Source of the DNA: an uncultured Oscillospiraceae bacterium
GTDB lineage: Bacteria; Bacillota; Clostridia; Oscillospirales; Oscillospiraceae
DNA length: 48,219 bases
NCBI GenBank assembly: GCA_950097245.1
Contig: CATNCS010000011.1
Coordinates: 1 to 48,219, forward strand
Direction: 5' to 3'
Positions 9,340 through 34,413 of this stretch are shown here, piece by piece. Position 1 is the first letter of the stretch, and each line of letters opens with the position of its first letter. The position numbers and the translations under genes are program-made. The notes beneath the pieces are model-generated. The model saw only the letters and a list, made by a program, of their open reading frames with translations, was not told the origin of the DNA and did not search any database.

Positions 9340-10404
9340 ATGGAACAGTTACACGCCGAGCGGGCGGTGCGGCAGCTGCGGGAGCTGTACCGCCGCTACG
9401 GATACACCCAGTATAAGATGAGCAAATTTGAGCCCTATGACCTCTACGCCCGCAGCAAGAGCTTTCTGGTCAGCGAGGATATCCTCACCTTCACCGACGC
9501 CGACGGGCGGCTGATGGCCCTGAAGCCGGACGTAACCCTGTCCATCGTAAAGAACGCCAAGGAGGGGGCGGGGCTGCAGAAGGTCTACTACAGCGAGAAC
9601 GTCTACCGCACCTCCCCCATGACCCGGAGCTTTCGGGAGATCATGCAGACGGGACTGGAGTGCGTGGGGGAGATCGACCTGGTGGCCATGGGTGAGGTGC
9701 TGCTGCTGGCCGCCAAAAGCCTGGAGACCATCAGCGGCGACTACCTGCTGGACGTCAGCCATCTGGGCTTTGTGGCCGGGCTGCTGGACAGCGCCCGTGT
9801 GCCGGAGGACTGCCGGGAGGAGCTGCTGAAGCGGATGGGGGAGAAAAATGTCTCCGCCCTGGGGGGACTTTGCCGGGAGCTGGGACTGGACCCGGAGATG
9901 ACTCAGGACCTGTGCCAGATGACCACCCTCTACGGCCCCCCCGCCCGGCTGCTGCCTCAGCTGGAGGAGATGGTCCGGGGAGATCGGATGTCCGCCGCCC
10001 TCCGGGAGCTGGAGGATGTATGCGCTCTCCTCCCCCAGGAGCACCTGCGGCTGGACTTCTCCATTGTCAACAACATGGACTACTACAACGGCCTCATCTT
10101 CCGGGGCTATCTGCCCGGACTGCCCAGCGGCGTGCTGTCCGGCGGACAGTACGACAATCTGCTGCGCCAGATGGGGCGGAAGGACGGGGCCATCGGCTTT
10201 GCCGTGTACATGAATCTGCTGGAGCGGCTGGAACAGCCCCGGGAGAGCTACGACGCCGACCTGCTGCTGCTCTACGACGACAAGGTTCCCGTCCCCGCCG
10301 TGCTGGAGGAGGCGGAGCGCTGCCGCCAGTCGGGCCAGAGCGTCCGGGTGGAGCGCCAGAGGCCGGAGGGGCTGTCCTTCCGGGCCGTGAGAAAGGTGGG
10401 GTGA
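9340..10404 (+). CDS. hisZ: ATP phosphoribosyltransferase regulatory subunit
   Basis: A 354-residue histidyl-tRNA synthetase paralogue. It keeps the class II core (ERAVRQLRELYRRYGYTQ, ALKPDVTLSIVKN, then SGGQYDNLLRQMG) but lacks the synthetase's C-terminal anticodon-binding domain. It activates the short HisG and makes it sensitive to histidine. The frame is open 40 codons upstream, but the ATG at 9340 with GGAGGAGGAAC before it fits the family start. It is the first gene of the operon. Confidence 0.93.
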   Translation: MEQLHAERAVRQLRELYRRYGYTQYKMSKFEPYDLYARSKSFLVSEDILTFTDADGRLMALKPDVTLSIVKNAKEGAGLQKVYYSENVYRTSPMTRSFREIMQTGLECVGEIDLVAMGEVLLLAAKSLETISGDYLLDVSHLGFVAGLLDSARVPEDCREELLKRMGEKNVSALGGLCRELGLDPEMTQDLCQMTTLYGPPARLLPQLEEMVRGDRMSAALRELEDVCALLPQEHLRLDFSIVNNMDYYNGLIFRGYLPGLPSGVLSGGQYDNLLRQMGRKDGAIGFAVYMNLLERLEQPRESYDADLLLLYDDKVPVPAVLEEAERCRQSGQSVRVERQRPEGLSFRAVRKVG

Positions 10405-22277: not shown

Positions 22278-22904
22278 ATGATAGAGATGATCGGATATCT
22301 GGGGTCTGCCCTGGTAGTGGCCTCCATGCTGATGTCGTCCGTCGTCAAGCTGCGGATCATCAACACCATCGGCAGCGGAATTTTCGCGGCCTACGCCCTG
22401 ATGATCCACTCCTACCCCACGGCGCTGATGAACGTCTTTCTGGTAGGGATCAACGTGTATAACCTGGTCAAGCTGAGCCAGAAGGACCGGAGCTACGACC
22501 TGGTGGAGGGCACCTGGGGAGAGGGTCTTCTCCGCTACCTGCTGGACTACTACAGGGAGGACATTCAAACATATTTCCCCGGCTTCACCCCGGACTGCGG
22601 GGCGGACCGGGCCTATATCGTCTGCTGCAACGGAAATCCGGCAGGCGTGCTGCTGGGAACCGACAGCGGTCAGGGGACCCTGCAGGTGCTGCTGGACTAC
22701 TCCACCCCCACCTACCGCGACTGCTCCATCGGGACCTATCTGTACTCCAGGCTGCCCTCCAGAGGCGTCCACACCCTGGTTTTCTCCGGGAAGGAGTCCC
22801 AGGCCCACGCGGCCTACCTGACCAAAATGGGCTTTGCCAAAAAGGATGGGGCCTATGTCAAGAATCTGACCGCTCCTCACGCCACTGCTTCATCGCATCG
22901 CTGA
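22278..22904 (+). CDS. YgjV-like membrane domain fused to a GNAT-like domain
   Basis: A 208-residue protein. Residues 1-70 form about three membrane helices resembling the Imp-YgjV family (IGYLGSALVVASMLMSSVVK, INTIGSGIFAAYAL). Residues 85-195 look like a soluble GNAT-type fold (VEGTWGEGLLRYLLDYY, then CSIGTYLYSRL and a C-terminal AAYLTKMGFAKK typical of GNAT ends). The function is unknown. AGGGAGGAA precedes the ATG. Its last 47 bases overlap the convergent diguanylate cyclase gene. The GNAT assignment is by appearance only. Confidence 0.6.
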   Translation: MIEMIGYLGSALVVASMLMSSVVKLRIINTIGSGIFAAYALMIHSYPTALMNVFLVGINVYNLVKLSQKDRSYDLVEGTWGEGLLRYLLDYYREDIQTYFPGFTPDCGADRAYIVCCNGNPAGVLLGTDSGQGTLQVLLDYSTPTYRDCSIGTYLYSRLPSRGVHTLVFSGKESQAHAAYLTKMGFAKKDGAYVKNLTAPHATASSHR

Positions 22905-23787
22905 CCCACACAACTCTGTTTCGGCCCAGCTTTTTGGCGTCATACAGCATGGCGTCCGCCATCTTCAGGCAGGAGTCATAGGTGCTGTCCCTCCGGGGTA
23001 TCATGGTAGCCCCTCCGATGCTGATGGTGACCCAGGGGGAGACCTCAGGGTTGTGGGGAATGTGGAGGTCCTCCACCGCCTGACGGACCCGCTTCAGATG
23101 GTTAAAGGCCTTTTCTGCGGAGTCGCCCACCAGGAAGGCCACAAATTCCTCCCCCCCATAGCGGGCAAAGAAGTCCGTGCTGCGCCGCAGATGGGAGGCC
23201 ACCGTCTTGGCCACGGAGGTAATCACCGTATCCCCGGCGGGGTGGCCGAAGGTGTCGTTATACACCTTGAATTTATCAATGTCAAACATGCAGACGGAAA
23301 AGGGAATCTGAAGGCGGGTGGCCTCCTGCCATTTTATTATACTGTAGCGGTCGTGACGCCGCCGGTTGGCCACCCCGGTGAGGGGGTCGGTGACCGACAG
23401 GGCCTCAATCTGCCTCCGATAGCGGTACAGCTTGATATGGGTGTTCACCCTGGCCTTGACGATCAGCGGGTGGAACGGCTTTACAATGTAGTCCACCGCC
23501 CCCAGGGTAAGGCCGAGCTGCTCGTGTTCAATATCGGCCAGGCTGGTAATCAGAATCACCGGGATGTGCCGGGTGATGACCTCCTCCTGCAGGGTTTTCA
23601 GCAGCGTAAAGCCATTCATGTCCGGCATAACCACATCCAGCAGAATCAGCGAGTAGCTGCCTGAGCTGGCGTAGTCAAGGCCGTCCTGCGCCGTGTGGAC
23701 AAGCGTAATCTCATAATCATTCTCCAGGATGGATTTCAACTGAGTGGCCTGTACAAGGCTATCGTCTACTATCAAAATCTTTTCCAT
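22858..23787 (-). CDS. Response regulator with GGDEF domain (diguanylate cyclase, PleD-like)
   Basis: A 309-residue protein. The receiver domain (1-120) has phospho-acceptor D51 (LILLDVVMPD) and K103. The GGDEF domain (about 130-300) has an active GGEEF at 211-215, the DIDKFK metal motif and an intact RxxD inhibitory I-site at 202-205. It should make cyclic di-GMP when phosphorylated, with product feedback. No cognate kinase is adjacent. It overlaps the convergent YgjV-like gene by 47 bases. Confidence 0.93.
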   Translation of the reverse strand: MEKILIVDDSLVQATQLKSILENDYEITLVHTAQDGLDYASSGSYSLILLDVVMPDMNGFTLLKTLQEEVITRHIPVILITSLADIEHEQLGLTLGAVDYIVKPFHPLIVKARVNTHIKLYRYRRQIEALSVTDPLTGVANRRRHDRYSIIKWQEATRLQIPFSVCMFDIDKFKVYNDTFGHPAGDTVITSVAKTVASHLRRSTDFFARYGGEEFVAFLVGDSAEKAFNHLKRVRQAVEDLHIPHNPEVSPWVTISIGGATMIPRRDSTYDSCLKMADAMLYDAKKLGRNRVVWVSDAMKQWREERSDS

Positions 23788-23848
23788 TTTTACACCCCTT
23801 GTTCAGGCCGCTCCCTCCCGGTTTGAAGCGTGGCCCTGTTGTCTGATA

Positions 23849-23877
23849 AGTATATAATAAAATTCTAAAAATAGCAA
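23849..23877 (-). promoter_or_regulatory. Promoter of the diguanylate cyclase gene
   Basis: On the minus strand TTGCTA, a 17-base spacer, then TATACT, in a locally AT-rich stretch. Confidence 0.65.
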
Positions 23878-23949
23878 GAAATATTCTTGGGTAACCGCGC
23901 CTGCCTCACAAGCCCTTTGAATTTTCCGCAGCCGTACCATCTGCTCCAT

Positions 23950-23987
23950 ATAAAAAATCCCTGAAGCCGCCGGGCCTCAGGGATTTT
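23950..23987 (-). terminator. Terminator of the 5-oxoproline operon
   Basis: On the minus strand AAAATCCCTGA / TCAGGGATTTT with a GC-rich loop and a final T run, 13 bases after the last gene of the operon. It also has an A run on the other side. Confidence 0.75.
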
Positions 23988-24000
23988 CGACAATAAGCGG

Positions 24001-24831
24001 TCAGTTTCCGGCCGCCTGCTTTTTGGCCTCCAGGTAGTCGTTGAGCTCGGTGTTCAGCACGTCGGCGATGAACATGTGACCGGGGGCGTGGGTAATCACA
24101 ATGGGGGGCCTGGCGTTCTCCACAGCGGCCTGGGGGGTGACGCCGCAGGGCCAGAAGACGGTAATCTCCCCGGGGTAGATGTCCACCGCCTCGCCGTAGT
24201 CGGGCTTCATCACGTCGGCCACCCCCACCTCCGCCGGGTCGCCCATATGGACAGGAGCCCCGTGGACGTTGGGCATCTTCACGGTGATGTCATAGGCCTT
24301 CTTGGCGTTCTCCGGGGTCATAGGCCGCATGGAGCACACCATGGGGCCCTCAAAGGGGCCGGCCTTCACCGTCTGGATGTTGGTCTTGTACATGGGCACG
24401 TTGCGGCCCTGGGCGATGTGGCGCACCTCGATGCCCTCCCGGATCAGGGCCTCCTCGAAGGAGAAGGAGCAGCCGATGAGGAAGCCCACATAGCCCTCCT
24501 TCCAGTACTCGGTGGCGTCGGTGAGCTCCTTGGTGAACACGCCGTTCTCATACACCCGGTAGCGGGGGATGTCGGAGCAGATGTTGCCCCCCTCCCCCAT
24601 GGCGTGGGTGTCCGGGGTGCCCTTGATGATCTCTAAAATGGGGCAGGGGAAGGGGTTGAGCTTGGCGTACTCCTCAAAATCGGCGGCATACTCCGGGGGC
24701 AGGATGACCAGGTTGGCCTGAGCGTAGCCCCGGCACATGCCGGCGGTGGGGAAGTCGATGACGCCCTCCCGGATGAGCTTGCGGACCTCAGACGGCTTCA
24801 TGTCGATGTAGGGGGTAATGTCAAATGCCAT
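24001..24831 (-). CDS. DUF1445 / YcsI-like putative hydro-lyase
   Basis: A 276-residue protein of the YcsI/D-glutamate cyclase-like family. Marks are TAGMCRGYAQANLVILP near residues 30-46, DIPRYRVYENG, GCSFSFEEAL, and FWPCGVTPQAA near the C-terminus. The ATG at 24831 has GAGGAGGAAC before it; the five codons upstream lack a ribosome site. In B. subtilis ycsI lies in the same operon as the 5-oxoprolinase genes. A role next to glutamate/5-oxoproline chemistry is likely, but the reaction is not established here. Last gene of the operon. Confidence 0.85.
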   Translation of the reverse strand: MAFDITPYIDMKPSEVRKLIREGVIDFPTAGMCRGYAQANLVILPPEYAADFEEYAKLNPFPCPILEIIKGTPDTHAMGEGGNICSDIPRYRVYENGVFTKELTDATEYWKEGYVGFLIGCSFSFEEALIREGIEVRHIAQGRNVPMYKTNIQTVKAGPFEGPMVCSMRPMTPENAKKAYDITVKMPNVHGAPVHMGDPAEVGVADVMKPDYGEAVDIYPGEITVFWPCGVTPQAAVENARPPIVITHAPGHMFIADVLNTELNDYLEAKKQAAGN

Positions 24832-24851
24832 GATGTTCCTCCTCATTTTCT

Positions 24852-24930
24852 TGTAGGGGCGGATATTATCTGCCCGCAGGATACCACCTGTGTCGAAGCA
24901 GAGGCGGGCGGGTAATACCCGCCCCTGCAG
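24852..24930. repeat. TGTAGGGG-type hairpin-pair repeat, site e
   Basis: TGTAGGGGCGGATATTATCT then GCCCG, and GGGCGGGTAATACCCGCCCC then TGCA. It lies between pxpC and the DUF1445 gene. Confidence 0.7.
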
Positions 24931-24949
24931 AGATGGTAATCAGCATGCT

Positions 24950-25891
24950 TTACGCGTTGATTTTGCTCAGCGCCTTCAAAGCGGCCCGCTGGGCCAGCAG
25001 CAGGCCCTGGGCGTACTCCACCGGCACCCTGACAAACTGCACCTTGTCCCCCGCCTTCAGCTGGGCCAGGGTGCGGAAGTCGGCGGTGATGACGGTGGCA
25101 ATTTTGGTGTAGCCGCCGGTGGTCTGCCGGTCGCCCAGCATGATGATGGGGGTGCCGGCGGAGGGCACCTGGATGGCGCCGAAGGCGATGCCGTCAGAGA
25201 TAATGTCGCCACCCTCCTTGTGGGCAATCACGGGGCCGTCCAGGCGGCAGCCCATGCGGTCAAACTCGGGGGTGACGGTGTAGGTGCCGCTGAGGAAGGT
25301 GTCGATTCCGGCGTCGGTGAAGTAGTCGTCCTGGGGGCCCATCACCACCCGGAGGGTATACACCGGCTTGGGGGCGAACTCGGGCCTGAGCACCCGGTCC
25401 TCCATCCGCTTGAGGGTCTCCACAGGGGCCCGGAAGCCGATTTGGTCCCCCTTCTCCAGCTTGCGGCCCTGATAGCCGCCGATCTTGGCCTTCATGTAGG
25501 TGGACCGGCTGCCCATGGTGAGGGGGATATCCAGCCCGCCGGCAAAGGCGATAAAGGCCCGGCAGCCCGCCTTGGGGGCGGTAAACTTCAGCACCTGGCC
25601 CGCCTTGACGGCCACCGCCTGATAGCCGGGGACGGGTTTGCCGTCCAGCGTGGGGCCCAGGTCGCCGCCGGTGATGGCAATCACATTCGCCTTGTCAAAC
25701 TGGAGCTGGGGGCCCATCATGGTGCACTCCAGCACCGCCTCCCCCTGGTCGTTGCCGGCCAGGATGTTGGCCAGAGCGGCGGACCGGGGGTCCATCACCC
25801 CGGACACCGACACGCCGAACTGCTGATAGCCCACGCGGCCCTGGTCCTGGACGGTGGTGAGCAGGCCGGGGTTCAATACGGTGATACTCAT
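24950..25891 (-). CDS. pxpC: 5-oxoprolinase subunit C (KipA-like)
   Basis: A 313-residue protein of the biotin-dependent carboxyltransferase-like/KipA family. Family marks: VLNPGLLTTVQDQGRVGYQQ at residues 4-23, GVSVSGVMDPRSAALAN, AGGLDIPLTMGSRSTY and the late GAIQVPSAGTPIIMLGDRQT. With PxpA and PxpB it opens 5-oxoproline to glutamate using ATP. The ATG overlaps the pxpB stop (ATGA), and complete length indicates an intact gene. Confidence 0.92.
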   Translation of the reverse strand: MSITVLNPGLLTTVQDQGRVGYQQFGVSVSGVMDPRSAALANILAGNDQGEAVLECTMMGPQLQFDKANVIAITGGDLGPTLDGKPVPGYQAVAVKAGQVLKFTAPKAGCRAFIAFAGGLDIPLTMGSRSTYMKAKIGGYQGRKLEKGDQIGFRAPVETLKRMEDRVLRPEFAPKPVYTLRVVMGPQDDYFTDAGIDTFLSGTYTVTPEFDRMGCRLDGPVIAHKEGGDIISDGIAFGAIQVPSAGTPIIMLGDRQTTGGYTKIATVITADFRTLAQLKAGDKVQFVRVPVEYAQGLLLAQRAALKALSKINA

Positions 25892-26628
25892 TTTCCGCCC
25901 TCCTTCCTGGGGTGACGCTTGACCTGATAGCCCTCCGCCGCTTCCTGGGCGGCGATCTTGTCAAACTCCGCCTGGTCGATGGCGTAGAACTTGATATACT
26001 GGCCCGCCTGGGGCAGGATGGGGGTCTCGCGATTGGCGTCGTACATCCGCACGGGGGTGCGGCCGATGAGCTGCCAGCCGCCGGGGGAGTCGATGGGGTA
26101 CACGCCGGTCTGAGAGCCGGCGATGCCCACCGAGCCGGCGGGAATCTTCACCCGGGGGGTCTTGAGCCGGGGGGTAGCGATGGCCTCGTCCATGCCGCCC
26201 AGGTAGGTGAAGCCGGGGGTGAAGCCCAGCATGTAGATCAGGTACTCGGTGGAAGTGTGGATTTTGATGACCTCCTCCTCCGTCTTGCCCGCGTGCTCGG
26301 CTACAAATTTCAGGTCGGGGCCCATCTCCTCCCCGCCGTAGAGGACGGGAATCTCCAGCCCCTCGCTGGGGGGAATTTCCACCTTGTCCAGCTGGCCCAG
26401 CAGGTCTTTCAGCTTGTCCATCAGGGGGGCGCAGCGGATGACCTCCGGGTCGTAGTGGACCATGAGGGAGCGGTAGGTGGGCACCGTCTCCACGATGCCG
26501 GGGATGTCGCTGCTGCTCAGGGCGATGTTGAAGGCGCGGATCTGGGCGTTGACAGGCTCGCTGATCTCGTTGCCAAACTCCACGCACACCGAGGTATCGC
26601 CCGTCAGCAGAAATCTGACGTCTGCCAT
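25888..26628 (-). CDS. pxpB: 5-oxoprolinase subunit B (KipI-like)
   Basis: A 246-residue protein with the KipI/allophanate-hydrolase subunit 1 fold: GDTSVCVEFGNEI at residues 9-21, then EIPVLYGGEEMGPDL, MLGFTPGFTYLGGMD near 133-147 and GSVGIAGSQTGVYPIDSPGG. It forms a complex with PxpC. In B. subtilis KipI also inhibits the sporulation kinase KinA; this is known for that homologue only and cannot be read from the sequence here. Confidence 0.92.
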   Translation of the reverse strand: MADVRFLLTGDTSVCVEFGNEISEPVNAQIRAFNIALSSSDIPGIVETVPTYRSLMVHYDPEVIRCAPLMDKLKDLLGQLDKVEIPPSEGLEIPVLYGGEEMGPDLKFVAEHAGKTEEEVIKIHTSTEYLIYMLGFTPGFTYLGGMDEAIATPRLKTPRVKIPAGSVGIAGSQTGVYPIDSPGGWQLIGRTPVRMYDANRETPILPQAGQYIKFYAIDQAEFDKIAAQEAAEGYQVKRHPRKEGGK

Positions 26629-26699
26629 AGAATAGCTCCTTTCGCGGCTTCAGGGCAGGCCCGGGAAGACCTGGCCCTGCCCTGAAGGGGAGTTTTTAT

Positions 26700-27965
26700 T
26701 TACTTGAAGAGATTCAGAATGTTGGGGACGGACTGCACGCCGGAGTACAGGGCGATGGCCACCACAACAACGCCCGGAATAATCATCCACATGGGGTGGT
26801 TGTAGTTCTCGCCCACAATCCGCTTGCTGCGGCTGGCAATGAGCATCACGCCCAGGGTGATGGGCAGGATCAGGCCGTTGAAGGCGCCGGCGACGATGAG
26901 CAGCTGGGCGGCGTTGCCCACGATGACCATCATCAGGGTGGAGAAGGCGATAAAGCCGATGACGCACTGGCGCTCATACTTGGCGATCACGGGGTGGAGC
27001 GTCTTCAGGAAGGAGACGGAGGTGAAGGCCGCGCCCACCACGGAGGAGACGCCCGCGGAGAACAGGCACAGGCCGAACAGCCGGTAGCCCAGGTCGCCGG
27101 CGGCCAGACGGAAGGCCTCGGCGGCGGGGTTGCCGCCCTTGGCGGCGTCGGTGATGATCTGAGCGTTCTCGGCCACCCAGGTGGTGCCCACGGTGCAGGT
27201 GCCCAGCACGGCCAGGAACAGCAGAATACGCACCAGGCCGGAGGTGCCGCACCCCTGAACCACGCTGCGGCGGACATGGCCCACGTTCTCGGGGCCGGAG
27301 ATGCCGGCGTCCAGCAGGCGGTGGGCTCCGGAGAAGGCGATATAGCCGCCGCAGGAACCGCCCAGGATGGTGGTCAGGGCGGTGAACATGCCGGTATCGG
27401 TATCCAGCAGCTTGTCAAAGCTGCCCAGGCCCTTGACGACCTCGCCCATGGGGGGCTGGGACTTGACGGCCACCACCAGCACGGTGAGGAGGATGACGGC
27501 GGCCAGCACGGTGGCCACCTTGTCCATAATGGTCTTGGCGTTCTTGTTCACAAAAATGATGATGCCCAGACAGCCGGCAATCACAGCGCCGACCTTCTGG
27601 TTCAGGCCGAACATGGCGTTGAAGCCCAGGGCCACGCCGCCCACATTGCCCACGTTGAAGGCCAGGCCGCCGATGGCCACCAGAATGGCGATAACCACGC
27701 CCAGGCCGGGCAGCAACTTGTTGGCCACGTCCTGGGCCCGCATGCCGGACACGGAGACCACGGACCAGATGTTCATCTGGGCGGTGATGTCCATCAGAAT
27801 GACCAGCACGATTACCAGGGCCAGGGCCGCGCCGTGCTGGGCGGTAAAGGTAGAGGTCTGGGTCAGAAAGCCGGGGCCGATGGCGGATGTAGCCATCAGG
27901 AAGGCGGCTCCGAACAGCACGGAGCGGCTGGGCTTCGCGCCACTGTTGGTAAGATTATTGCTCAT
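26700..27965 (-). CDS. NRAMP-superfamily permease without metal-binding motifs (YcsG-like)
   Basis: A 421-residue membrane protein with about 11 helices and NRAMP-type architecture. The first-helix metal motif DPGN is replaced by GPGF at residues 30-33, and the sixth-helix MPH motif by SGAH at 212-215. Those residues bind Mn2+/Fe2+ in true NRAMP proteins, so a metal ion is an unlikely substrate. B. subtilis YcsG occupies the same place in the ycsF operon. Import of 5-oxoproline or a related organic compound is the natural inference. GGAGG precedes the ATG. Confidence 0.85.
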   Translation of the reverse strand: MSNNLTNSGAKPSRSVLFGAAFLMATSAIGPGFLTQTSTFTAQHGAALALVIVLVILMDITAQMNIWSVVSVSGMRAQDVANKLLPGLGVVIAILVAIGGLAFNVGNVGGVALGFNAMFGLNQKVGAVIAGCLGIIIFVNKNAKTIMDKVATVLAAVILLTVLVVAVKSQPPMGEVVKGLGSFDKLLDTDTGMFTALTTILGGSCGGYIAFSGAHRLLDAGISGPENVGHVRRSVVQGCGTSGLVRILLFLAVLGTCTVGTTWVAENAQIITDAAKGGNPAAEAFRLAAGDLGYRLFGLCLFSAGVSSVVGAAFTSVSFLKTLHPVIAKYERQCVIGFIAFSTLMMVIVGNAAQLLIVAGAFNGLILPITLGVMLIASRSKRIVGENYNHPMWMIIPGVVVVAIALYSGVQSVPNILNLFK

Positions 27966-28015
27966 GTAAGTACCTCCAAATAGTCAGTTTTCTCTCCCTT
28001 GTGAAGTTTTGCTAC

Positions 28016-28092
28016 CGCAGGGGCCGCCGCCTTCGGCGGCCCGCCGGAGCAGGGCTTGGAACACGGGGCGGCGAAGGCGCCGCCCCCTACAG
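28016..28092. repeat. TGTAGGGG-type hairpin-pair repeat, site f
   Basis: GGGCCGCCGCCTTCGGCGGCCC hairpin (quoted arms GGGCCGCCG and CGGCGGCCC), then GGGGCGGCG and CGCCGCCCCCTAC. It lies between pxpA and the permease gene. Confidence 0.7.
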
Positions 28093-28100
28093 GGACACCA

Positions 28101-28868
28101 TTACACAATGTCGGCGATGGGGGCGATGGTAACGCCCTCCGCCTCCAGGCGGGCCCGGATGTTCTTGACAAACTCCACCGCAGAGGGGTTGTCGCCGTGG
28201 ACGCAGATGGAGTGGGCGTCGATGGAGACCTCCTCGCCGGTGATGGCGGTGACCTTGCCCTCAGTGACCATGCGGATGGTGCGGGCGATGGCCTCGTCCT
28301 TGTCGTGAATCACCGCGCCGGGCTTGGAGCGGGGCACCAAGGAGCCGTCGGCCTGGTAGGCCCGGTCCGCGAAGACCTCGCTGGCGATCTTCAGTCCCAC
28401 CTGCTTGCCGGCCTCCAGCATCTTGCTGCCGGCCAGACCCAGCAGGATCACGTCCTTGTCCACGCTGGCGATTCCCTCGGCGATGGCCAGGGCCAGGTCC
28501 ATATCCTTGCCGGCCATGTTGTACAGAGCTCCGTGGGGCTTCACGTGCTGGAGCTTCACCCCGTTGGCGGCGGTGAAGGCCAGCAGGGCGCCCATCTGAT
28601 ACTGGATGTAGGCTTTGGCCTCCTTGGGGGAACAGACCATGTTCCGGCGGCCGAAGCCCATCAGGTCGGGGAACCCGGGGTGAGCGCCCACCGCCACGCC
28701 GGCGGCCTTACAGGCGGCCACGGTCTTGTCCATCACCAGCGGGTCGCCGGCGTGATAGCCGCAGGCCACGTTGGCGGAGGACACATGGGCGATGACCGAT
28801 TCGTCCATACCGATGGTATAGGCGCCGAAGCTCTCGCCCAGGTCGCTGTTCAGGTCTACTTTGTACAT
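28101..28868 (-). CDS. pxpA: 5-oxoprolinase subunit A (LamB/YcsF family)
   Basis: A 255-residue protein: [19 protein letters not shown] at residues 4-22, [29 protein letters not shown] and KPHGALYNM, all hallmarks of YcsF/PxpA. It is the catalytic partner of PxpBC in ATP-dependent hydrolysis of 5-oxoproline to glutamate. The ATG at 28868 follows GAAGGAGG; the six codons upstream contain that ribosome site. It is the first gene behind a sigma-54 promoter. Confidence 0.93.
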
Positions 28869-28907
28869 AGCAAAGACCTCCTTCAAAAGTTTTCAGCTAT
28901 AATACAG

Positions 28908-28923
28908 AGCAACTTTTGTGCCA
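28908..28923 (-). promoter_or_regulatory. Sigma-54 (-24/-12) promoter of the 5-oxoproline operon
   Basis: On the minus strand the sequence is TGGCACAAAAGTTGCT. It matches the sigma-54 consensus TGGCAC-N5-TTGCT, with exactly ten bases between the GG and GC. Transcription would start near 28897, about 30 bases before the pxpA ATG. Sigma-54 needs an NtrC-type activator, and one is encoded directly upstream. Confidence 0.88.
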
Positions 28924-29009
28924 ACACTGCCGAGTCCAAAAAACTTTATTCAAAATACCGGGCATATCCATTTTTTCAAACTTTTTTCCACTGTTTTTCT
29001 GATACTTTC

Positions 29010-29053
29010 ACAAAAGAAACGCCCCGCCGTGCGATTTTGCACAGCCGGGCGTT
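29010..29053 (-). terminator. Terminator of the symporter-kinase-activator operon
   Basis: On the minus strand a 15-bp stem (AACGCCCGGCTGTGC / GCACGGCGGGGCGTT, one mismatch and one wobble) is followed by TTCTTTT. It separates the regulatory operon from the sigma-54 promoter, so the two operons are transcribed independently. Confidence 0.75.
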
Positions 29054-29073
29054 CAATTTCGCACAGCACTTTG

Positions 29074-30441
29074 CTAAACATCTCCGCTGTTTTCCGCATC
29101 CAGCCGGCGCTTCAGGGTAAAGCGGGTACAGCCCAGCAGCTCCGCCGCTCTGGACAGATTGCCCCCCGACAGCTCCATCGCCCGGTCAATATAGCTCCGC
29201 TCGAAGGCATCCACCTCATGGCGCAGGTCTATCGCGCCCAGCTCCAGGTTGTACATGGGGAAGCTGAGCCCCGAGGCCGGCCTGCGGGGGGACAGCGTCA
29301 GTCCCGTCTCCGCCCCGGTGAGCAGGTCCCCCTTGCTGAACAGGGTGCACCGCTCCATCACATTGCGCAGCTCCCGCACGTTGCCATGCCAGTGGTAGCG
29401 CTCCAGCACGGCCAGAAAATCCGGGTCGATGCCCCGGATGGACTTGTTGAACTTCCGGTTGAAGTGCTCCAGATAGAACTGGCACAGCACAGGGACGTCC
29501 TCCGGCCGCTCCCGCAGGGGCGGGATGCTGATCTGCATCACATTCAGACGGTAGTACAGGTCCTCCCGGAAGCTCCCCTTTCGCACCTCCTCCTCCAGGT
29601 TGCGGTTGGTGGCGGCGGCAATCCGGATATTGACCTCGATGTCCCGCAGGCCGCCTACCCGCTTGAAGGTGCGGTCCTCCAGAAAGGTGAGCAGCTTGGC
29701 CTGCATGACCAGGGGCATCTCGCCGATCTCGTCCAGAAAGACCGTGCCGCCGTTGGCCAGCTCCATCAGGCCCTTCTTGGTCTTGGCCGCGCCGGTAAAG
29801 GCCCCCTTCTCATAGCCGAACAGCTCCGACTCCAGCAGATTGGGGGGAATCGCGCCGCAGTTGATCTTCACCAGGGGCTTGTTCCGGCGGGCGCTGTTGT
29901 CGTGGATGTTGTGGACCACAACCTCCTTGCCCGTGCCGGTCTCGCCGCAGATGAGCAGGTCCACCGTGTCGTTTTCCGCCAGCACCTGGATGTCGCTCCG
30001 GATGCGCTGAATGGCGGGACTGGCCCCCAGCAGGCACCGGGGGCGCAGCTTCATCAGCTCCAGGCTGCGGCGGCTGGTCAGCTGCTCGATCCCCCGCCGG
30101 ATAATCAGATCCACCTCCTCCAGGTCGAAGGGCTTCTGGACATAGTGGCTGACCCCTAGCTTCATGGCCTCCACCGCCTGGGAGACGGAGCCGTAGGCCG
30201 TCATCAGAATCACCTGGACGTCCTCGTCCAGCCGCTTGAAGTCTGAGATATGGTCCAGTCCCGCCTCGTCCCCCAGCCGGTTGTCCAGCAGCACCACATC
30301 CGGGCGAAGGGCCTCGGCCCGCTTCAGACCCTCCTGGATATCTCCGGCGGTGTCCACCTGGTAGCCCAGGTCGGACAGGCCGCTCTCCAGGGTCATACGG
30401 ATCAAAAACTCGTCGTCTACCACCAATACCTTGTATTTCAC
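29074..30441 (-). CDS. Sigma-54-dependent response regulator (NtrC family)
   Basis: A 455-residue activator with three domains. The receiver (1-120) has D53 (VVLLDNRLGD) and K103. The AAA+ domain (about 140-375) has Walker A GETGTGKE at 166-173, the sigma-54 contact loop GAFTGA at 213-218, and Walker B GGTVFLDEIGEMP. The C-terminal Fis-type helix-turn-helix (about 410-450) includes LSRAAELLGCTRFTLKRRL. It remodels sigma-54 polymerase to open promoters. Its start overlaps the kinase stop (ATGA). The 5-oxoproline operon next door is its probable target. Confidence 0.95.
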   Translation of the reverse strand: MKYKVLVVDDEFLIRMTLESGLSDLGYQVDTAGDIQEGLKRAEALRPDVVLLDNRLGDEAGLDHISDFKRLDEDVQVILMTAYGSVSQAVEAMKLGVSHYVQKPFDLEEVDLIIRRGIEQLTSRRSLELMKLRPRCLLGASPAIQRIRSDIQVLAENDTVDLLICGETGTGKEVVVHNIHDNSARRNKPLVKINCGAIPPNLLESELFGYEKGAFTGAAKTKKGLMELANGGTVFLDEIGEMPLVMQAKLLTFLEDRTFKRVGGLRDIEVNIRIAAATNRNLEEEVRKGSFREDLYYRLNVMQISIPPLRERPEDVPVLCQFYLEHFNRKFNKSIRGIDPDFLAVLERYHWHGNVRELRNVMERCTLFSKGDLLTGAETGLTLSPRRPASGLSFPMYNLELGAIDLRHEVDAFERSYIDRAMELSGGNLSRAAELLGCTRFTLKRRLDAENSGDV

Positions 30442-32087
30442 AATGCTCCTCCTGTCCCGTGGAAGGTCAAAATTGCCTCAGTCCCCTTTCCGGGGACGCT
30501 GTGAATGTTCAGGCTTCCGCCGTTTTGCCCCAGCAGCCGCCGGACGATGGACAGCCCCAGCCCGCCGTCCTCCCCGTTCAAGGCCCGCTCCAGCGTCTGG
30601 GGGGACATGCCCGTCCCGCTGTCTGACACGGTGACCGACACAGCGTCCTGAACCGCCCGGCCCGCCAGCGTCACCCTGCCCCCGTCAGGCATGGCCTTGA
30701 TGCTGTTGTTGATGAGGTTGATGAGCATCTGCCGCAGCTCCTGCTCGTCGGCAAAGAGCCACAGCGCGCCCTCCATCTCCACAGACAGGGTGATGCCCTT
30801 GTTCTCCATCACCTTGAAGTACAGCATCATCAGCTCGTCGCACAGGGCGTTCAGGCTGACGGTGGTCTTTTCGCTCTCCCGCTTCCGGGAGAGATTGAGC
30901 AGGTTTTCAATCAGCAGGTTGACCCGGTCCACCTCCTTGACCATCTCCCGGCACAGCAGGATGTCCCGCTCCTCAGACAGCTTGCGCCCCACCACCTGGA
31001 GCCCGGCCCGGATGCCGGCCAGGGGGTTGCGGGCCTCGTGGGCCACATCGGCGGCCAGCTGGCCGGTATAGGCCAGCTTCTCGTCCCGGCTGATCTTCTC
31101 CTCCATGTGCTTCTTATAGGTCACGTCGTCGATGGTGCACAGGGTCCCCCAGCTGGAGCCGTCCTGGTTGCGCAGCCTCCAGGCCCCGAACTCATAGTCC
31201 CGGACCTTCCCCTCGCTGTCCCGCATGCGGGCGGGGGCGGGCAGCACCTCGTCCCGCTGGACCATCTCGGCCAGCAGCTCCCTCAGGTCCCGCCCCAGGC
31301 TGTCCCGCTCCCCCTCCAGGCCGAGCATGGCATCGGCCCGGACGTTTTGAAAGATAACCCGGTTCTCCTGGTCATACACCACCACTCCCAGGGGAAGGTT
31401 CTCCACAATGCTCTCGTTCAGGGCCTTAACCCGGGTCAGCTCCCGGGTGTAGCCCCGCAGGCTCTCCATCATGGACTGGAAGGCCGCGGCCAGCTGGCCC
31501 GTCTCGTCCCGGCGGCGGGTGTACTCCACTGCCAGGTCCTCCGCCCGGTCCGGGGTCCGGCTGACCCGGGTGCACACCTCGCTGAGCTGGCGCAGGGGGG
31601 CGGAGATGTTGTTGGCAATGAGCACGCTGGCCTGAACAATAATCAGCAGCATGGCAATGGCGGCCAGGATCATATACCGCTGCTCCTCAATAAACTCCGC
31701 CCGCAGCTGCCGCTGATCCAGGCAGTACAGCACCCGCCAGTTCAGCCGGTTGGAGGTGCTGTCCTCCAGCACCAGCTCCTCGTCCCCCGGGGTCCTGCGG
31801 CCAAACAGCAGCTGCCCGTCGGAGTCGTAGAGAAACAGGCTGTCCCCCCGGTAGGTCCGCTCGTATTTTTCCAGCAGATCGCCGGGATTCAGCCAGTAGT
31901 TCCCCGCGTCAATGTCGGAGTTGATGTAGGCCGCCAGCGCCTTGGCGTTCACCGACTCCGTCTCAATCTTCACCTCATATTCCGTCTGGTACAGAATATA
32001 GCAGAAGCAGACCACGGTAATCAGGCTGATGCAGACAAAGGGGGCCAGAATTTTATTTTCGATGGTGACCTTCAGCTGCCGTCTCAT
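30438..32087 (-). CDS. Membrane sensor histidine kinase (NtrB-like)
   Basis: A 549-residue kinase. Transmembrane helices at about 12-33 and 139-158 enclose an extracellular sensor region of about 105 residues. Then come a HAMP domain (about 160-215), a PAS domain (about 222-330), the H-box DVAHEARNPLAGIR with H350, and a HATPase domain with N-box NLINNSIKAM, DSGTGM and GGLGLSI. It should phosphorylate D53 of the downstream activator. ATGA overlaps join it to both neighbours, so symporter, kinase and regulator are made together. The signal is unknown. Confidence 0.94.
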   Translation of the reverse strand: MRRQLKVTIENKILAPFVCISLITVVCFCYILYQTEYEVKIETESVNAKALAAYINSDIDAGNYWLNPGDLLEKYERTYRGDSLFLYDSDGQLLFGRRTPGDEELVLEDSTSNRLNWRVLYCLDQRQLRAEFIEEQRYMILAAIAMLLIIVQASVLIANNISAPLRQLSEVCTRVSRTPDRAEDLAVEYTRRRDETGQLAAAFQSMMESLRGYTRELTRVKALNESIVENLPLGVVVYDQENRVIFQNVRADAMLGLEGERDSLGRDLRELLAEMVQRDEVLPAPARMRDSEGKVRDYEFGAWRLRNQDGSSWGTLCTIDDVTYKKHMEEKISRDEKLAYTGQLAADVAHEARNPLAGIRAGLQVVGRKLSEERDILLCREMVKEVDRVNLLIENLLNLSRKRESEKTTVSLNALCDELMMLYFKVMENKGITLSVEMEGALWLFADEQELRQMLINLINNSIKAMPDGGRVTLAGRAVQDAVSVTVSDSGTGMSPQTLERALNGEDGGLGLSIVRRLLGQNGGSLNIHSVPGKGTEAILTFHGTGGAL

Positions 32088-33544
32088 CGCCCTTCCCCCT
32101 CTGCCCGCCTCTCAACGGCGGAGACCAAAAGCATGGCGGCGGTGGAGAGCGGGGTGGCGAACATGGCGGGATGCGCGGTCAGGGCCCCGGTGTAATACAT
32201 GGGGTACAGCACCAGAATCGATCCGCAGCCCGCAAAAATACAGGCCCAGATTCCCCGTCTGGTCAGCCGCATGCCCAGCAGCGTCCCGTACAGGGGCGGG
32301 AAGAGCAGGATGCTGACAATCCCCCACACATCGCCCCCGTAGGACAGGGTAAAGTTGGGCGGGTTCAGGGTGAGCAGCATGGAGAAGGTCCCGCCACCAA
32401 ACACCGCCAGCCGCCCCAGCTTTACCGTCTGCTTGGCGGAGATATCCCGAAAGAACAGCCCGGGCAGTACGTCGTAGGAGAAGGAGGACGCGATAAGCAG
32501 CAGCTGGGAGTTGGCTGTGGAGACGCAGGCCCCAATCACCGAAAAGAGGAAGAAGCCGCTCCAGGGGCCGTACAGCTCATTGTTAATCAGGCGGATAATG
32601 ATCCCGTCGGTGGTCTCGGCAAAGGGCAGGGAGGGGATCAGCACCCGCATGCCCAGGCCGATATTGGTCAGCAGAAAGTAGATCACCGCCAGCAGAATCA
32701 GCGAGTAGACAACGGTGCGCTGGGCGGTCTGCCGGTCCTGTGCCCCCAGCAGCCGGACCAGATACTGGGGATTGGCCGCCAGCCCCAGCCCCCAGCCCCA
32801 AAACATGCTCAGGCTGACCAGCGGCGTGTACCGGCCTCCGAACAGGGCCAGAAGGTCCCCCGGCCGGTTGGAGGCCGCGGCGGCCTCATGGGCCCGGCCC
32901 GAGATTTCCCCGGCCCGGCTGTACAGCACCTCCAGCCCTCCCACCTGAGACACCACCGAGAAAAACAGCACAATCAGGCTGACTGTGAGCAGAATCAGGT
33001 TGAACATGTCGGTGCGCACCACCGAGCGGTAGCCCCCGAAGGTGGTGTAGATGATAAACAGATACACCATGCCCACCGCCACGGGGTAGGGGATGTCGAA
33101 CAGGGCGGACGCCACCATGCCGAAGCCCTTGTACTGGGCCACCAGGTAGAATATGTACACCAGAATAAAGACAATCCCGTAGACAATCTGCAGCGCCCGG
33201 GAGCCGTAGCGGAGGCGGAACAGCTCCGGGACGGTGATGATGTTGTTCTGATACAGTCTTCTGGTCACCAGTCCCAGCAGAAAAGCCCCCAGAAACCAGG
33301 GAATCACCGAAAAGGACAGGGCCGACAGACCGTCCTCATACACGCTCCCCGTCAGGCTGAGGATGGTGATGGCGGATATCCAGGTCCCCGTAAAGGTGCA
33401 TACGCACAGGGGCAGGCTCACCTTCCGCTCACAGATAAAATAGTCCTCCGGCGTGTTCACGTCCCGCAGGCTGCTCTTGCCGATAATCAGCAGAACAACC
33501 GAGTAGACGCAGAAATAGCACAGATACAGCACAGTCCTGCTCAC
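32084..33544 (-). CDS. Sodium/solute symporter (SSS) family protein
   Basis: A 486-residue protein with about 13 membrane helices of the SSS/PutP family: YFICERKVSLPL after helix 1, TFTGTWISAITILSLTGS, YLVAQYKGFG, and FGGYRSVVRTD typical of the family core. It could import the inducing compound, or act as a transport-coupled sensor as the SSS part of Pseudomonas CbrA does. The GTG start is preceded by GGGGAGGGAG. Its stop overlaps the kinase start, which links transport to signalling. The substrate is not known. Confidence 0.9.
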   Translation of the reverse strand: MSRTVLYLCYFCVYSVVLLIIGKSSLRDVNTPEDYFICERKVSLPLCVCTFTGTWISAITILSLTGSVYEDGLSALSFSVIPWFLGAFLLGLVTRRLYQNNIITVPELFRLRYGSRALQIVYGIVFILVYIFYLVAQYKGFGMVASALFDIPYPVAVGMVYLFIIYTTFGGYRSVVRTDMFNLILLTVSLIVLFFSVVSQVGGLEVLYSRAGEISGRAHEAAAASNRPGDLLALFGGRYTPLVSLSMFWGWGLGLAANPQYLVRLLGAQDRQTAQRTVVYSLILLAVIYFLLTNIGLGMRVLIPSLPFAETTDGIIIRLINNELYGPWSGFFLFSVIGACVSTANSQLLLIASSFSYDVLPGLFFRDISAKQTVKLGRLAVFGGGTFSMLLTLNPPNFTLSYGGDVWGIVSILLFPPLYGTLLGMRLTRRGIWACIFAGCGSILVLYPMYYTGALTAHPAMFATPLSTAAMLLVSAVERRAEGEGR

Positions 33545-33585
33545 AGCAATCTCCCTCCCCGCAGCTGTTGTGTTTTTCCTGTAGA

Positions 33586-33615
33586 ATCATATCATATCTC
33601 ACCCGGCAATTGCAA
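33586..33615 (-). promoter_or_regulatory. Promoter of the symporter-kinase-activator operon
   Basis: On the minus strand TTGCAA, an 18-base spacer, then TATGAT. This is an ordinary sigma-A promoter, in contrast to the sigma-54 promoter of the target operon. Confidence 0.6.
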
Positions 33616-33636
33616 CATCGGGATATATCCGCCCTC

Positions 33637-34413
33637 TCAAAGGGTCCGCAAAACCTCCTCCACGCTGGAGCACACAGAGAACTCCTCCTGGAGCCGGGGG
33701 TGGGCGGTGTCCATGATGTAGGGGCGCCCCGCCATGCGGAGCATGGGCAGGTCGTTGAAATTGTCGCCGAAGGCCATAACCCGCTCCGGGGAAATATTCA
33801 AAATTTTGCAGAGCCGGTCCAGTCCCGTCCCCTTGTCCGCCAGGGTAAAGTCCAGCCAGGCGGCGCCGGCCACGGCGGCGCGAAATCTCTCTCCCCATTT
33901 GGGGACCAGCGCCTCCCGCGCCCCCTCCAGGCCGCCGGGACAGTAGGCCGACACCTTGACAATGTCCTCCGGGACCTCCTTCGGCGAGGGGACCCGGCAG
34001 ATATTGTTGCCGGTGAACCAGCGGATGTGCGCCTCAAAATCCGGCCCCTTGGGGCAGAGATAGCTGGTGTCGGCCCCTGAGATCAGCACCTCCACCCCGG
34101 GCAGGGCCATAATATCCCTGCTCAGCTCCTCCGCCAGGGCCCGCTCCATCACCGTTTTGCTCCAAACCGGACCGGGCCCTCCGGGACCATAGATGACAGC
34201 GCCGTTCTCGCACAGAAACGGCACCCTGTCCGCCACCGGGGCGAACAGCTGCCGCAGACTGTGGTACTGCCGCCCGCTGGCGGGGCAGAATAAAATCCCC
34301 CGCCCCTCCAGCCGGCGGATCTGCTCAAAAATTTCAGGCGGGATGTCCGCCGCCCCGCCTCGCAGCAAGGTGCCGTCGATGTCGCTGGCAATCAGTTCTA
34401 CCGTGCCCCCCAT
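33637..34413 (-). CDS. HAD-superfamily Cof-type phosphatase
   Basis: A 258-residue HAD hydrolase of the Cof/IIB cap group. Motif I is ASDIDGTLL (residues about 9-17), motif II FCPASGR, and motif III/IV a late lysine with MAFGDNFNDLPML near 205. Such enzymes dephosphorylate sugar phosphates or nucleotide phosphates; the substrate is not predictable. The ATG at 34413 follows GAGGAGGAAGG; the frame upstream runs through the leader hairpin and is not coding. Confidence 0.9.
   Translation of the reverse strand: MGGTVELIASDIDGTLLRGGAADIPPEIFEQIRRLEGRGILFCPASGRQYHSLRQLFAPVADRVPFLCENGAVIYGPGGPGPVWSKTVMERALAEELSRDIMALPGVEVLISGADTSYLCPKGPDFEAHIRWFTGNNICRVPSPKEVPEDIVKVSAYCPGGLEGAREALVPKWGERFRAAVAGAAWLDFTLADKGTGLDRLCKILNISPERVMAFGDNFNDLPMLRMAGRPYIMDTAHPRLQEEFSVCSSVEEVLRTL

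Follow-up and report, generated by a model that had tools for sequence, protein, structure and literature searches.

Within a 48,219-nucleotide stretch of DNA from an uncultured Oscillospiraceae bacterium (contig CATNCS010000011.1 of assembly GCA_950097245.1; hereafter the window), eight adjoining minus-strand genes are predicted to form a two-operon regulon for the catabolism of 5-oxoproline, controlled by a dedicated two-component system acting through sigma-54. From the sequence comparisons described below, we give this reading a probability of about 0.78. One operon encodes an SSS-family symporter, a histidine kinase and an NtrC-type activator (the sensor set), and the other encodes PxpA, PxpB and PxpC together with a permease and a D-glutamate cyclase-family protein (the pxp operon). 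The control link between them is probably real because the sensor set, a sigma-54 promoter and a likely docking site for the activator recur together with the breakdown genes in relatives. This circuit had been proposed earlier from the letters of the window (the original prediction) and is now well supported, the promoter element being found in 20/20 loci that carry the sensor set and missing from ten operons of the same genus that lack it. Our own numbers for loci (L), genomes (G) and contigs (C) are used where these have to be told apart.

All eight genes were recovered as open reading frames with Pfam matches at the positions originally given (Table 1), and the gene coordinates bear out the successive 4-base overlaps that join symporter, kinase and activator. 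Core Pfam domains of the eight genes score far over their cut-offs, except for the PAS domain of the kinase; of the PAS-HAMP kinase described before, the HAMP part stands, whereas PAS is marginal (PAS_7, 27.7 versus a cut-off of 27). Homologues of PxpA, PxpB and PxpC occur all together at the locus in both Pfam and NCBIfam searches, and they constitute a predicted 5-oxoprolinase. PxpC stays under the cut-off of its equivalog model NF045499 (251.7 versus 500) and passes the broader family model TIGR00724. The PF07286 domain of the cyclase-family protein is presumably the DUF1445 of the original prediction. The pxpA gene starts with an ATG at position 28868, with a Shine-Dalgarno-like AGGAGG directly 5' to it, and the GAFTGA motif of the activator is kept in all 16 loci compared.

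Table 1. Features of the predicted 5-oxoproline regulon in window coordinates.
Feature	Position	Strand	Remarks
SSS-family symporter	32084..33544	-	PF00474, 125.8 bits; relative at same place in 20/20 sensor loci
Membrane histidine kinase	30438..32087	-	short extracytoplasmic domain, HAMP, marginal PAS, HisKA, HATPase
NtrC-type response regulator, sigma-54 activator	29074..30441	-	PF00158, 231.7 bits; PF00072; PF02954 (receiver, AAA+, Fis-type helix-turn-helix)
pxpA, 5-oxoprolinase subunit A	28101..28868	-	PF03746, 349 bits; NF003814, 386 vs cut-off 226
NRAMP-fold permease, PxpT/YcsG/PxpG type	26700..27965	-	PF01566, 78.5 bits
pxpB	25888..26628	-	PF02682; TIGR00370, 220.9 vs cut-off 145.55
pxpC	24950..25891	-	PF02626; TIGR00724, 306 vs cut-off 230.2
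D-glutamate cyclase-family protein	24001..24846	-	PF07286, 222.1 bits; NF003969 'putative hydro-lyase', 374.6 vs 324
Sigma-54 -24/-12 element TGGCACAAAAGTTGCT	28908..28923	-	zero mismatches to consensus; 40 bp ahead of pxpA ATG
Terminator-like hairpin after activator gene	29019..29052	-	T-rich tail to 29012; one stem mismatch, then TTCTTTT
Dyad TGTGC-N6-GCACG, likely activator site	29028..29043	-	loop-proximal stem of hairpin
Upstream dyad copy TGTGC-N6-GAACG, likely activator site	29050..29065	-	mostly outside hairpin
Sigma-70-type promoter-like site TTGCAA-18-TATGAT	33586..33615	-	TG ahead of second hexamer; before sensor operon; consensus scan

The sigma-54 promoter claimed ahead of pxpA was confirmed as an exact -24/-12 element. 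When up to two mismatches were allowed, 11 matches were found in the window, of which TGGCACAAAAGTTGCT is the only one free of mismatches. Since this count is under the 24 expected by chance, the weight of the element lies in its exactness, position and conservation; a chance match was considered and rejected on the exact position and on the conservation across loci. The best -24/-12 score in the 300 bp upstream was 11/11 in 16/16 sensor loci (13 from the genus and three from named genomes), versus 7-8/11, which is the level of shuffled sequence, in 10/10 sensorless operons of the genus. An rpoN gene, on which the original prediction depended, is present in the genome of the window on a separate contig (PF00309 over cut-off).

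A sample of 64 genomes of the genus was searched with the kinase as query. Orthologues were found in 13 genomes, the window's own included (61-100% identity; 61-93% for the 12 others), and the remaining matches, 27-31% identical, were taken as other kinases. All 12 other orthologue loci were compared: the pxp genes follow the sensor set in every one, and all eight genes stand in the same order in ten. L057 is truncated within the permease gene by the end of its contig, and a cyclase-family gene was not found in the remaining 1.8 kb of L058, a locus in which the activator gene reads as two overlapping pieces (L058:3656-5016; possibly a frameshift or an assembly error). An exact -24/-12 element (11/11) lies at -55 to -58 in 13/13 sensor loci of the genus, and rpoN was found in 42/64 genus genomes and in 12/13 of those with the sensor set. 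The permease is swapped in place in two loci (L052:5460-6647 and L054:8676-9911), being 60-61% identical to that of the window and 83% between the two, while the other pxp-operon genes of such loci are 90-99% identical. A second, divergent set of pxp genes in the order pxpB-pxpC-pxpA (pxpA 55-56% identical) occurs in L102, L103 and L106, and two of these genomes also carry the sensor-controlled operon.

Beyond the genus, a kinase scan of named genomes gave at least 80 loci, nine of which were compared with the eight genes (L107 and G351 were counted once). Among the matches listed, four match the kinase over nearly its full length, and identity does not exceed 31% for the other 76, five of which were compared. 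Pygmaiobacter massiliensis and Anaerotruncus sp. G3(2012) share the eight-gene order, as does Faecalispora jeddahensis, which has two tandem copies of pxpC (L110:16154-18064); P. massiliensis and F. jeddahensis belong to the Oscillospiraceae in the NCBI taxonomy. Sampling with the kinase in the family and in the order gave 3/300 and 3/394 genomes, respectively, all of the genus, and divergent sets may be missed here because only 3-4 candidates per genome were scored. At the level of the class, pxpA was found in 32/392 genomes, own included, and upstream DNA was compared for 29 other pxpA loci, two further pxpA genomes being left out. In two of these 29, an activator gene adjoins a 10/11 element, and the whole sensor set is present in both. 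When the kinase of one of them, G766, was used as query against 292 class genomes, it found G766 and three others, all of them pxpA carriers. In these four genomes the kinase is only 26-29% identical, and the element matches 10/11 in L222 and L223 and exactly in L228 and L229. No cyclase-family gene was found at L222. Gene order is shuffled in L228 (cyclase-family gene, a distant NRAMP relative of 23% identity, pxpA, pxpB, pxpC) and in L229 (permease, pxpB, pxpC, pxpA; cyclase-family gene not found), and the exact -24/-12 element still lies 105-170 bp after the activator gene. The synteny comparison called for by the original prediction thus shows, for each of the 20 sensor-bearing loci examined, an element located after the activator gene and ahead of the pxp genes. 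Nineteen of the 20 genomes came from kinase searches blind to promoter and pxp genes, and G766 was the class-level query. An rpoN gene was found in 7/7 sensor genomes outside the genus and in 19/20 overall; provided that L108 belongs to contig C1, the rpoN of P. massiliensis (G1077; C1:1473340-1473474) may be only a few kb from the pxp operon, on its downstream side. The predicted circuit occurs in several families of anaerobic Clostridia.

In the proposed circuit, the sensor operon would be transcribed from a housekeeping promoter, and symporter and kinase together would report extracellular 5-oxoproline or a close relative, with the symporter probably importing or binding the ligand and so modulating the kinase. 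As is usual for its family, the kinase would phosphorylate the NtrC-type regulator, which would bind two conserved dyads of the type TGTGC-N6-GCAC, 22-23 bp apart and one of them inside a hairpin, and would switch on sigma-54 polymerase at the -24/-12 element ahead of pxpA. By analogy with characterised homologues, permease and PxpABC would import 5-oxoproline and convert it to glutamate by ring opening, and the cyclase-family gene may, more speculatively, extend the pathway to D-glutamate or 5-oxo-D-proline. Judged from gene content, 5-oxoproline is the likeliest signal, and either the kinase or the symporter, or both, may detect the ligand. The structural genes point to this compound. In Corynebacterium glutamicum, the permease PxpT, which has a role in 5-oxoproline uptake, and PxpABC are both required for growth on 5-oxoproline (PMC13274462).

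The same sigma-54 wiring could respond to a different signal, such as glutamate, glutamine, proline, a peptide product or nutrient status, the pxp operon being one response, and we consider this possible, though not what we would expect. The symporter lies under every curated NCBIfam cut-off, and its best equivalog-type model is the proline transporter PutP (TIGR02121; 122 bits versus 515.5). Also, the SSS-domain kinase CbrA of Pseudomonas is a histidine transporter, and failure on several amino acids is reported for a CbrAB variant (PMC7918813). However, in all 20 loci it is the pxp genes that follow the sensor set, 19 of these genomes having been found without regard to pxp. In the symporter, a Ser-Thr pair is kept in 15/16 loci and aligns with the Ser-Ser of a sodium/glucose cotransporter; we take it to be part of the Na2 site. 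A structural model of the whole kinase was poor (predicted local distance difference test, pLDDT, 65.2; predicted template modelling score, pTM, 0.31) and was used for secondary structure only, and the extracytoplasmic stretch of about 100 residues, modelled alone, reached a pLDDT of 81.

The terminator expected after the activator gene was found as a terminator-like hairpin (29052-29019), of which a 44-base stretch folds at -28.9 kcal/mol; a mechanical terminator scan did not list it, probably because of its stem mismatch. The dyads are an addition to the original prediction, one of them sitting inside the terminator named there. TGTGC-N6-GCAC is common to all 13 genus sequences between activator stop and promoter (the first T is C in one), with GTGC and GCAC invariant, and also occurs in L108-L110, L110 having C as its first base. 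Upstream of it, at a distance of 22-23 bp or about two helical turns, a second copy matches TGTGC-N6-G[CA]AC[AG] at 10/10 positions in 14/16 loci, being degenerate in L054 and L055. The dyad centre is located 82-161 bp ahead of the -24 box. In the whole genome, TGTGC-N6-GCACR has three matches, the two others on C8 and C36, and none within the stretches around the other -24/-12 sites. In P. massiliensis the same hairpin follows soon after the activator gene. The dyads of F. jeddahensis and Anaerotruncus need not belong to the activator gene's own terminator, since they lie about 250 and 170 bp beyond it; a short hairpin and T run are kept in the former, and in the latter T runs come next, though folding of the short stretch gives no single hairpin. 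Three of the four class-level relatives have a clear hairpin with a T-rich tail after the activator gene, the hairpin of L229 being read by eye.

The two parts of the stem evolve differently. In the 13 genus sequences, the outer nine pairs have 90.6% of cells paired and two-sided changes in 7/9 pairs, whereas four of the five inner pairs are unchanged. Four of five measures for the outer stem were reached by 0/500 shuffles and the count of pairs with two-sided changes by 29/500, figures that are no probabilities since the shuffles ignore relatedness; every slid control was lower. The outer stem shows the pattern of RNA pairing and the inner stem that of protein recognition, and TGTGC-N6-GCAC inside the hairpin is likely the enhancer of the activator. 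It is improbable that TGTGC/GCACA is a terminator stem only and no activator site. In favour of that reading, the hairpin holding it has a T-rich tail, conservation of loop-proximal stems can occur, and a 9/10 match to the dyad also occurs in the sensorless locus L099. However, the outer stem changes with compensation around an almost constant inner one, the second copy lies mostly outside the hairpin, and the other nine sensorless operons reach only 6-8/10. A bolder proposal, which we put forward tentatively and hold to be rather doubtful, is that one DNA element serves two systems, the operon of the activator ending in a hairpin that also harbours the activator's enhancer, so that transcription of the sensor genes and occupancy of the enhancer interfere. 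If so, bound activator would be a possible roadblock, sharpening termination and limiting its own synthesis, and a passing polymerase could clear the enhancer, giving a built-in negative feedback and insulating the sigma-54 promoter. An enhancer within a terminator is a simple design that can be searched for elsewhere.

Relatives without the sensor set served as natural controls. In the genus sample, pxpA (E-value up to 1e-30) was found in 28/64 genomes, namely the 13 with the sensor, ten with a close pxpA (83-99%) without it, and five with divergent or partial copies only; all ten sensorless close loci, three of the five divergent or partial ones and the second copies of two sensor genomes were compared. 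The same five-gene operon is present in 8/10 sensorless loci. An rpoN gene was found in 6/10 of these genomes and not found in three others that are at least 97% complete. On the best PxpABC tree, Fitch parsimony requires seven changes of sensor presence, and eight on a collapsed tree in which polytomies were treated crudely, many nodes being weak; we read from this only that the sensor set has been gained or lost repeatedly. In two sensorless loci, L092:4896-6119 and L095:7917-9131, a third permease type is found (91% identical mutually, 77-78% to the window). A long protein ends about 110 bp ahead of pxpA in L098 (3635-6586) and L099, with solute-binding, GGDEF and EAL domains in L098, and in L095 the sensorless pxpA is preceded by genes for a histidine kinase and an OmpR-type regulator (L095:3910-6628).

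These controls bear on the suggestion that sensor set and pxp operon are mere neighbours, with pxpA transcribed by read-through or from a sigma-70 promoter. By eye, apparently sigma-70-type sequence precedes several sensorless pxpA genes of the same operon type, and in the window a sigma-70-like site (28979-28952) lies directly upstream of the -24/-12 element. Against this, a conserved terminator-like hairpin separates the two operons, and within the genus the exact -24/-12 element occurs only alongside the sensor set; it also stays after the activator gene where the operon order has changed. Independence of the two operons is therefore very unlikely.

The genome of the window has a second sigma-54 system. 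Genome-wide, six exact -24/-12 matches were found, versus one for a reversed control pattern; those on C62 and C65 lie within open reading frames, that on C38 overlaps a 221-aa frame, and that on C41 is about 200 bp ahead of a 193-aa frame. Only C11 and C70 combine an exact match with a high-scoring activator. Of seven PF00158 matches over the curated cut-off of 20.2, two are strong (243.7 and 234.7 bits), namely the window's activator and one on C70, each adjoining one -24/-12 element; the five others (24.9-33.9 bits) are probably other AAA+ proteins, since the search also matches all 14 control genomes. The C70 activator (L018:7901-9292) is a PAS-type one-component regulator, divergent from an Asp/Glu racemase-family gene (9489-10305), before which TGGCATACGGTTTGCT stands. 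Both sigma-54 systems of the genome may touch glutamate chemistry. That the C70 activator drives the pxp promoter, leaving the local two-component system another role, is hardly credible, for although both strong activators are encoded in one genome, that of C70 is paired with a divergent gene that carries a -24/-12 element, and the dyad TGTGC-N6-GCAC[AG] was not found on its contig.

Several observations weigh against the proposed regulon. The sensorless relatives show that the pathway can run without sigma-54 sensor control, and rpoN was not seen in G351, a sensor genome that is 77% complete. The class-level genomes G753 and G766 were first noticed through their -24/-12 element, and the dyad motif is unrecognisable in the four class-level relatives, except loosely, by eye, in L229. 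The dyad-like match of L099, which is reached by 0.3% of shuffles, lies inside the gene upstream of pxpA. Fold matches of the kinase sensor domain are of the Cache/PDC-like type but marginal, so that no ligand is read from them, and the symporter could serve another substrate.

With respect to the surroundings, a sigma-70-type scan of positions 23800-33750 gave six sites, among them the one before the sensor operon, versus 1.8 expected from shuffles, which alone is no evidence of function. A receiver-GGDEF gene (22858-23787) lies on the same strand directly downstream of the pxp operon. For the flanking HAD and response regulator-GGDEF genes, no match (E-value 1e-15) was found in the flanks retrieved for the 12 relatives in the genus, some of these flanks being short.

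Both glutamine and glutamate give rise to 5-oxoproline spontaneously, and little work has been devoted to how bacteria regulate its use. In Bacillus subtilis, ycsF-ycsG-ycsI-kipI-kipA-kipR presumably comprises the five structural genes of the pxp operon. There the gene order differs, and the place of the sigma-54 two-component system is taken by KipR, a regulator of the IclR type. In the literature searched, only GntR control in C. glutamicum was found described for this pathway, and the authors of that study (2026) state that, to their knowledge, regulation of 5-oxoproline use had previously been unstudied (PMC13274462). Their PxpR-pxpTABC system resembles the window in combining an NRAMP-family permease with PxpABC under substrate-responsive control, and YcsG of B. 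subtilis is mentioned there; it differs in that PxpR is a repressor binding 5-oxoproline, and the accessible text mentions no sigma factor, kinase, symporter sensor or D-glutamate cyclase (PMC13274462). Clostridial sigma-54 regulons are likewise known for activator-specific control of amino-acid catabolism, about 10% of the activators being response regulators (Nie et al., 2019; PMC6615313). Table 1 of that paper, with 39 clostridial activator groups, holds no pxp, ycsF or kip gene, and the main text of two sigma-54 surveys has no mention of oxoprol-, LamB or YcsF. In agreement with the original prediction, no sigma-54 or two-component control of a 5-oxoprolinase operon was described among the papers that the literature searches listed, Pxp work on Clostridioides difficile being outside their coverage.

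The highest NCBIfam models for the window's kinase and regulator are AtoS and AtoC (193.7 and 411.8 bits, far under the cut-offs of 646 and 714), which serve a pathway other than that of 5-oxoproline. The AtoSC sensor operon of Escherichia coli is not known to include a symporter gene. Like the window, AtoSC-atoDAEB is a sigma-54 catabolic operon with a paired inverted site, but that site is a 40-bp palindrome of two 20-bp sites (PMC3118216), whereas the window has tandem dyads in a terminator-like hairpin. No STAC domain occurs among the window's Pfam matches. In Pseudomonas, the response regulator CbrB acts with sigma-54. CbrA-CbrB similarly places an SSS symporter and a kinase upstream of a response regulator; in CbrA, however, the symporter is fused to the kinase and is without the Na2 residues (PMC7918813), whereas in the window the genes are separate with a 4-base overlap and the symporter type keeps its Ser-Thr pair. 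The symporter-kinase-activator arrangement of the window extends the range of known transporter-linked sensors, and the locus offers a complete, testable circuit in anaerobic Clostridia, with close sensorless relatives at hand for comparison. Sigma-54 two-component catabolic operons are a well-known general kind; what is new is that pxp genes are the target, that the symporter has a gene of its own and that the likely enhancer is nested. The regulon appears to be real, undescribed and of this known kind, with an unusual nesting of enhancer and terminator.

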